From: Paraburkholderia sp. IMGN_8
GTDB taxonomy: Bacteria > Pseudomonadota > Gammaproteobacteria > Burkholderiales > Burkholderiaceae
Reading direction: 5' to 3'
Assembly (NCBI RefSeq): GCF_038050405.1
Contig: NZ_CP150900.1
Span: forward strand, 1,674,001 to 1,738,000
DNA length: 64,000 nucleotides
Each line of letters starts with the position of its first letter. Within the stretch, counting starts at the first letter, position 1. The notes under the pieces were generated by a model. It did not search any database. It saw nothing but the letters and a program-made list of their open reading frames with translations, and was not told the DNA's origin. Below, piece after piece: positions 3,534-3,699 of this stretch. A program made the position numbers and the translations under genes.

Positions 3534-3699
3534 ACTTGCAGGAAAATACGAGCTCGGGGCTCAGTCAACTGTTCGGGTTAAGAGGATGAAAAGGACAGTC
3601 GCTCAGGCTTTTCTGCGGGCTCGAAGCACTTTAGGCAGACGAGCTGACTGTCCATGTGGCGACAACTGATCGGATCGGCGCCACAGGAGGGAATATACA
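3534..3699 (-). ncRNA. Candidate bridge RNA of the IS110 element
   Basis: Noncoding end upstream of the transposase, read on the minus strand. Two hairpins are visible. Near the element end, TGTGGCG/CGCCACA (3685-3679 with 3661-3655) closes a 17-nt loop. Next, GGACAGTC..GCTC..CTGC pairs with GCAG..GAGC-GACTGTCC (3653 to 3593), a long stem with internal loops. The left internal segment holds TGCCTA (complement of 3632-3637), identical to the six bases before the CT core at the insertion site. The right segment holds AGAAAAG (complement of 3608-3614), complementary to the core plus the next five bases. That is the layout expected of a target-binding loop. Donor-binding pairing is less clear: TGCAAG beside the start codon could pair with CTTGTA of the element end. 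Boundaries are approximate. Confidence 0.6.
3692..3697 (-). promoter_or_regulatory. -10 half of a promoter formed at the IS circle junction
   Basis: TATATT in transposase orientation, 4 bases inside the upstream element end. The other end carries TTGACT at 2408-2403. In a circularised element the two are separated by 13 + 4 = 17 bp. That gives a near-consensus sigma70 promoter directed into the candidate bridge RNA and transposase. In the linear inserted form the -10 has no matching -35. Confidence 0.6.

Follow-up and report, generated by a model that had tools for sequence, protein, structure and literature searches.

The IS110-group element in the window, by which we mean the whole 64,000-nucleotide stretch of Paraburkholderia sp. 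IMGN_8 analysed here, is with little doubt an autonomous mobile element carrying a bridge RNA that guides its insertion into one arm of a REP-like palindrome. Its boundaries, guides, catalytic residues and junction promoter motif, as well as the covariation of the guides with target and donor, appear from sequence comparison, so that the address of an IS110 element could be read from raw sequence without prior annotation.

The element would probably move as follows. In the excised circle, the joined ends would form a promoter (TTGACT and TATATT, 17 bases apart), from which the bridge RNA would be transcribed out of the left end. In its first loop, TCTGCCTA would bind the bottom strand of the target on the left side of the CT core, and AGAAAAG the top strand, starting at the core and running to the right. 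Its second loop would pair with the joined ends of the element, through ACAGTTG and GCAAG around the CT core of the donor. Strand exchange at the two CT cores by the DEDD/serine recombinase would follow, and the element would enter one chosen arm of a REP-like palindrome dispersed in the chromosome. By analogy with IS621, the RNA is presumably made, bound by the protein and able to drive recombination.

The element and its copies

The element occupies positions 2390-3699 on the minus strand, not counting the copies of the CT core at 3700-3701 and 2388-2389, and these boundaries are kept in its relatives. A search of the host genome (9.1 Mb, two contigs) with 2300-3800 returned six full copies, each interrupting joined flanks, and about 45 places, by a hand count of the matches, where the two flanks adjoin and the element is absent. 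At most of these empty sites the two flank matches overlap by 2-3 bases (for example, C1:3113678-3113764 and 3113762-3113862), and because the empty sites place the ends there, the element was taken to run from 2390 to 3699 with one CT per end. The six interrupted copies and the empty sites agree with the insertion-site boundaries given in the original prediction. Insertion is scarless, as in the IS110 group, with a single core in the empty site (one empty unit was read directly). The proteins of the six host copies are 100% identical, which suggests recent movement.

The left end measures 166 nt and the right end 184 nt, the reverse of the usual IS110-group arrangement with a longer left end, which is a tendency rather than a strict rule. 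Among the relatives, the right end ranges from <20 nt (L017) to the 184 nt of the window element (2390-2573), and we know of no function for this extension. Incomplete or rearranged copies were also seen: L007 (G000:C1:3149485-3149878) is a right-end remnant, L057 has a left end that cannot be recognised, and L012 lies between two outer sides of the palindrome, which suggests recombination between copies. Named close relatives were found in Burkholderia sp. OK233 and in several Paraburkholderia species, and the relatives on plasmids (1,223 records) all fall below 60% identity. The protein search yielded 5,717 proteins at E <= 1e-60 among 7,997 scored, and the named matches among the 120 listed carry generic transposase names.

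The recombinase

The transposase gene (2574-3533, minus strand) encodes 319 amino acids with the Pfam domains PF01548 and PF02371, and the score of the protein exceeds the threshold set by NCBI for NF033542, 'IS110 family RNA-guided transposase'. Alignment to the IS621 (8wt6) and ISCro4 (9t56) recombinases places D17, E61, D103, D106 and S241 on the DEDD residues and catalytic serine of IS621, which are named in PMC11208158. The protein thus has the RuvC-like DEDD domain and the Transposase_20 domain with catalytic serine that characterize the IS110 group. Its match to the IS621 recombinase structure has an E value of 3.9e-36; ISCro4 (PDB 9t56) is the best match among solved structures (E 1.8e-38), in a comparison that covered the recombinase sequence.

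Target guides upstream of the transposase

The putative target-binding loop is a 61-nt hairpin at 3593-3653 on the minus strand, GGACAGTCAGCTCGTCTGCCTAAAGTGCTTCGAGCCCGCAGAAAAGCCTGAGCGACTGTCC, closed by the outer stem GGACAGTC/GACTGTCC. Its left target guide, TGCCTA (3632-3637, within an 8-nt frame at 3632-3639), had been predicted to repeat the six bases that precede the core, and the minus strand of 3632-3637 is indeed the same as that of 3702-3707. These bases belong to the left half of the target, 3700-3711 on the minus strand, in which the core CT (3700-3701) is preceded by TTTTGCCTA. The right target guide, AGAAAAG (3608-3614, minus strand), is, as had also been stated, the exact complement of CTTTTCT at 2383-2389, made up of the core and the five bases after it; the right half of the target extends over 2360-2389 on the same strand and comprises the core CT at 2388-2389 and the remainder of the palindrome. 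In the window element, as in L036, L037 and L041, the core C is left unpaired by the left target guide.

The original prediction held that such a double match is unlikely by chance, and this stands for the strict form of the match. None of the 5,978 CT dinucleotides on both strands of the window has both an exact left 6-mer and an exact right 7-mer, in order, in the hairpin, and among random CT sites of window composition 284 in 2,000,000 (about 1.4e-4) match the hairpin in any order. It does not carry over to a looser 8+8 score that allows mismatches and free position, which is much less selective: 17 of the 5,978 window CT sites reach the 14/16 of the true site, and at least three of these sites belong to the hairpin. 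Because the loose score is reached so often, the single match was not relied on; taken alone, the agreement between hairpin and flanks is suggestive, and it is the covariation seen in relatives that, at the level of sequence, settles the guide reading.

Covariation of guides and flanks

Relatives were collected from three overlapping sets: genome contigs (25 loci), 144 genomes of the genus, 20 of them matching at E <= 1e-40, and 299 genomes of the family, 18 of them matching at E <= 1e-60. They gave 79 oriented loci with both ends and a donor-loop motif, representing 25 distinct target loops in 12 guide families; both this set and the 77-locus set used for the donor comparison include some genome places counted twice. 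The end patterns removed 29 loci (17 for lack of a left end, 12 for lack of a right end), L099, which lacks the donor-loop pattern, stands outside the 12 families, and the boundary rules failed on the relatives of 34-39% identity (L022-L029 and L033), L025 yielding a left end only.

With one element per family, the matches of guides to their own targets sum to 156, against a shuffle mean of 127.3 (sd 4.4, maximum 151), and none of 100,000 family-level shuffles was as high as the true guide-target pairing; like the other permutations reported here, these treat related elements as independent and ignore kinship. In seven of the 12 families the own target fits better than every other one compared, whereas in five (L051, L091, L092, L096 and L101) one to three foreign targets fit as well or better, and these five guide families would be unconvincing on their own. 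In the near clade, where the guides were fixed by alignment (with row L090 one base off), the left guides match at 96 positions against a shuffle mean of 86.6 (16 types; 30 of 100,000 shuffles as high), and the right guides at 61 positions against 49.1 (12 types; 39 of 100,000).

Individual loci make the covariation clearer than the sums do. L044, whose transposase is 61% identical, has the left guide TTTGCTTAC and the right guide GAAAGAAAG; it sits in TTTGCTTACT, with CTTTCTTT on the right, and matches its flanks at 9/9 positions on the left and 8/9 on the right. L016 has GCTTAC in its left guide and flank (GCTTACT) where the rest of the group has GCCTAC or a near variant, and in L090 TTTGGTTA is common to guide and flank. 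L045 combines the right guide GAAAGAGAG with the right flank CTCTCTTCC (CTCTCTT); in L041, L045 and L053 the match is good on the right side, with only 5/9 on the left. Relatives with other guides are mostly located in other targets that match those guides. The two target guides around the CT core covary with their targets, as in the IS110 group, which supports the prediction of a guided recombinase whose target is readable from sequence; identical loops at unrelated targets, or loops that do not covary with their flanks, had been named as the contrary outcome, and the guided reading survived this comparison in relatives.

Could the recombinase itself read the palindrome, the hairpin matching the flanks by descent or chance? 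The low selectivity of the loose score (17/5,978 CT sites) lends this idea something, as does the fact that near-clade elements nearly all sit in one palindrome family, because of which their guides and targets are both nearly constant. Yet between families the guides shift toward the flank on both sides, and the donor guide, described below, tracks the right end of the element in four of five types. We regard a protein-read target as extremely improbable and prefer guidance by the RNA.

Donor loop and junction promoter

The original prediction described the target loop correctly but not a second loop, which is present at 3528-3578 on the minus strand. This candidate donor-binding loop (ACCC...GGGT) can fold with an inner GAGC/GCTC stem, and its closing ACCC and GGGT are invariant in 14 aligned relatives. 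Its left donor guide, ACAGTTG (3566-3572, minus strand), resembles the right end AATACGGTTG and is one base off the element's own right-end sequence ACGGTTG; its right donor guide, GCAAG (3535-3539, minus strand), can pair with the core and the start of the left end, CTTGT, with G-T as the last pair, and its CAAG is invariant in the 14 rows. The left donor guide equals the right end exactly in 29 of 77 loci and in four of five guide/right-end types, namely ACAGTTG/ACAGTTG (21 loci), ACGGTTG/ACGGTTG (3), ACGGTTA/ACGGTTA (4) and ACAGATG/ACAGATG (1), while the type of the window element, ACAGTTG/ACGGTTG (48 loci), has one mismatch; these are pattern-caught loci rather than independent events, and since the right-end pattern fixed four of the seven letters, the comparison rests on the other three. 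Covariation of donor guides with element ends, another feature of the IS110 group, was thus found for the left donor guide only, with the one mismatch in the clade of the window.

The donor loop extends over codons 1-2 of the transposase at its annotated start, which makes a regulatory role beside the guide role plausible. A structured leader might even serve translation control of the transposase mRNA instead of guidance, as reported for ISPpu9, which is inserted at REPs and has a structured 5' UTR and two small RNAs (PMC8450116). Such control would leave unexplained why both loops follow the target and donor sequences, and as a replacement for the guide function it seems to us highly unlikely.

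A promoter appears to be formed only at the circle junction. The -35-like TTGACT lies in the right end (2403-2408) and the -10-like TATATT in the left end (3692-3697), both on the minus strand, and circularization would bring them to a spacing of 17 bases; no promoter-like site was found in the linear sequence 2300-3800. This motif or a similar one, with a 17-base spacer, occurs in 23 of 27 distinct junctions, the window's included, the -10 pattern having been picked after inspection of the ends.

Predicted structure of the RNA

The consensus fold places a 5' stem-loop of ten pairs at 3656-3684 (minus strand); across 18 sequences, eight of the ten pairs show compensatory pair types, and five of the ten also include some unpaired cells. 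For the 18 left ends as a whole, RNAalifold gave an unfavourable covariation term (+2.5), and the outer stem of the target loop was therefore checked sequence by sequence. Its own arms form 7-8 of 8 pairs against 5-8 for cross-pairs, a modest support, with the equivalents GAAGCGGT/GCCGCTTC in L044 and AGGCAGTC/GGCTGCCT in L017; the score of 5/8 for L039 reflects a slice that missed the 3' arm. The single-sequence minimum-energy fold, which pairs parts of the two guides together (CTGC/GCAG), was not taken as the working structure.

A covariance model built from 14 near relatives (R1) matches the window at 3528-3655 only, upstream of the transposase. At E <= 10 it gave 24 matches in 23 of 41 sources, two of them in L048, and 19 of the 24, including that of the window itself, have E < 0.02. 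The matches lie mostly at the transposase start, judged by position, and the model recognises the RNA in distant IS110 loci; it gave no match in L091, L104 and L111, in L094, L096, L097 and L107, or in the 34-39% relatives L022-L028. The proposed search with covariance models was thus positive for the model of near relatives and negative for Rfam, in which no IS110 guide-RNA family matched window positions 1-10000 at E <= 1; the Rfam matches in that range were Bp1_684 at the ends of the host repeat and a chance-level snoRNA. Sequence and predicted structure point to a structured RNA encoded in the left end and preceding the recombinase gene, as in the IS110 group. Membership of the IS1111 group, in which the guide RNA is expected downstream, in the right end, was rejected on the position of the R1 match.

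The palindrome and the choice of arm

The target is one arm of a palindrome that consists of CCTACTTYTCTTTGC, a short spacer and GCAAAGARAAGTAGG. The palindrome is REP-like in that it is 34-37 nt long in the matches listed, with 52 copies in the host (REPs being palindromes of 21-65 nt in many copies), and it occurs in 82 of the 144 genus genomes, in up to 364 copies. The two arms have the core and the right half in common and differ on the left, where TTGCC precedes TACT in the inner arm and GCACC in the outer one. Although the host holds exact, intact arms of both types in similar numbers (61 with TTGCC versus 58 with GCACC), the inner, TTGCC-type arm holds 38 of the 39 scored insertions in nine genomes (6 in G000, 6 in G005, 8 in G047, 1 each in G099 and G107, 3 in G117, 5 in G118, 3 in G123 and 6 in G124; two-sided binomial test against 0.5, p = 1.5e-10). 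The exception is L018 in G117, which sits in the other arm. This count leaves aside L012 (recombinant flanks), L057 (no left end) and the truncated L016 and L019; with the latter two, both in the inner arm, it becomes 40 of 41. As expected, the inner arm, which is the arm used, is the better fit to the left guide TCTGCCTA, and a preference of the protein for the outer flank would give the same outcome. The unequal use of arms with a common core and right half nevertheless speaks against a protein that simply reads the palindrome.

In the host, the palindrome belongs to a repeat unit several hundred bases long, in which an inverted REP-like palindrome lies close to either end (window 2272-4403 minus the IS; L008 800-1700). 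The Rfam Burkholderia sRNA family Bp1_684 matches the outer sides of this unit at 2272-2369 (minus strand) and 4305-4403 (plus strand), with 32.2 and 40.8 bits against a gathering threshold of 44; as it matches both outer sides, the Bp1_684 'sRNA' family may be part of the host repeat. The far arm of the unit in the window, at 4280-4300, has the sequence TTTGCTTACTTTCTTTGCGGC, which is the type of target in which the diverged L044 element sits.

One-base variants of guide and target

Right guides of the type AGAAAAG or AGAGAAG and palindrome subtypes CTTTTCT or CTTCTCT provide natural one-base variants of guide and target, with which specificity could be determined without recourse to designed libraries. 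Counted by hand per insertion site, the AGAAAAG guide has CTTTTCT as its target in 22 of 23 cases, and the AGAGAAG guide has CTTCTCT in 13 of 16, mostly a between-genome difference. On CTTTTCT, AGAGAAG would form a G-T pair, whereas AGAAAAG on CTTCTCT, as in L079, gives a mismatch.

Within genomes the one-base test of the right guide gave a mixed result. In G124 (guide AGAGAAG), all six occupied inner arms with a readable right flank are CTTCTCT compared with 1 of 47 empty inner arms (p 3e-7), or five of five when L012 is left out (p 2.3e-6). This result was demoted because the occupied arms form a close subfamily, with a mean identity of 0.93 over 44 bases versus 0.81 among sampled empty arms, and may represent few events. 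All five copies in G118 fit their guide type, the empty arms being divided 6 to 4 (p 0.23, not significant), and so do all three in G123, where nearly all empty arms are of the same type (p 1.0). G005, with six copies and both right-guide types, shows no preference (CTTTTCT 3 versus CTTCTCT 3; Fisher p 0.66). Since an intact CTTCTCT inner arm is absent from G000, G047, G099 and G117, these genomes are uninformative on the one-base choice.

The similarity of the occupied arms in G124, like the apparently recombinant L012 with its two outer flanks, would also fit copies that spread by recombination or duplication of repeat units carrying the element, in which case within-genome counts would exaggerate the number of independent choices. 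The flanks differ among copies in G005, G118 and G123, however, and such spread cannot account for the between-family covariation across genomes; we consider it unlikely as an explanation, and retain guided insertion.

Taken jointly, these observations allow a tentative reading, to which we give somewhat less than even weight: a genus-wide bridge-RNA lineage on one REP-like palindrome family may track the sequence drift of that family, with one-base guide changes (AGAAAAG/AGAGAAG) following the palindrome subtypes, the left guide picking one of the two arms of an almost perfect palindrome, and both guides of a diverged sister lineage having been re-aimed at TTTGCTTACTTTCTTT, also present in the repeat unit of the window. 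If this is true, these elements would form a natural series for measuring bridge-RNA target evolution and in vivo discrimination.

Relation to known IS110 elements

PMC11208160 describes the bridge-RNA layout of IS621, predicts that 85.7% of IS110s have a bridge RNA and names REP palindromes among the insertion targets of IS110 elements. The window element resembles IS621 of Escherichia coli (PMC11208160, PMC11208158) in its predicted left-end RNA with a 5' stem-loop, a target loop and a donor loop; in guides that would pair with opposite strands around a CT core; in the DEDD residues and serine; in a circle-junction promoter, seen here as a sequence motif alone; and in a REP palindrome as the natural target. 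The G-T pair in the right donor guide is reported at the same place in IS621 (PMC11208158). It differs from IS621 in its distant recombinase, a different palindrome, a right target guide of 7-8 nt versus 4, the absence of core pairing by the left target guide of the window copy, and a right end longer than the left.

ISEc21 has an upstream guide RNA (seekRNA) and a naturally redirected relative, ISMch6 (PMC11187229). Our element and its relatives are like ISEc21/ISMch6 in being of the IS110 type, in the upstream RNA, in the order of the two target matches and in natural retargeting by guide changes, whereas ISEc21 targets the inside of IS3-family transposase genes rather than a palindrome. Four further members of the IS110 family, ISPa11, ISPpu9, ISPpu10 and ISRm19, have all their tabulated copies at REPs (6/6, 7/7, 7/7 and 4/4, respectively) in PMC1525189, a paper that predates guide RNAs; their hosts and palindromes are different from those of the window element.

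The mechanism proposed here is therefore not new, since PMC11208160, PMC11187229 and PMC1525189 already cover the layout, the guides and the association with REPs. The original prediction had called bridge RNAs known and the present one apparently undescribed: the mechanism is published for the whole IS110 family, and among the listed papers on bridge RNA and IS110, judged by titles and the beginnings of abstracts, none was found on a bridge RNA in Paraburkholderia. The main added value of the present elements is a natural retargeting series on one palindrome family, with several guide variants and many copies per genome; in addition, bridge-recombinase work gains a candidate orthologue in this recombinase.

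Two further groups of targets were noted among the relatives. L091, L104 and L111 (G377) and L101 and L109 (G368) sit at CCCCT|CTCTCCCGC, beside the palindrome GCGGGAGAG, another REP-like target. L048 (G052) and L083, L084 and L085 (G047) are IS110 elements of about 50% identity whose right flanks start with CTATCC; shortly after each of them comes an ORF whose start resembles that of an IS3-type transposase, reminiscent of the IS3 target of ISEc21.
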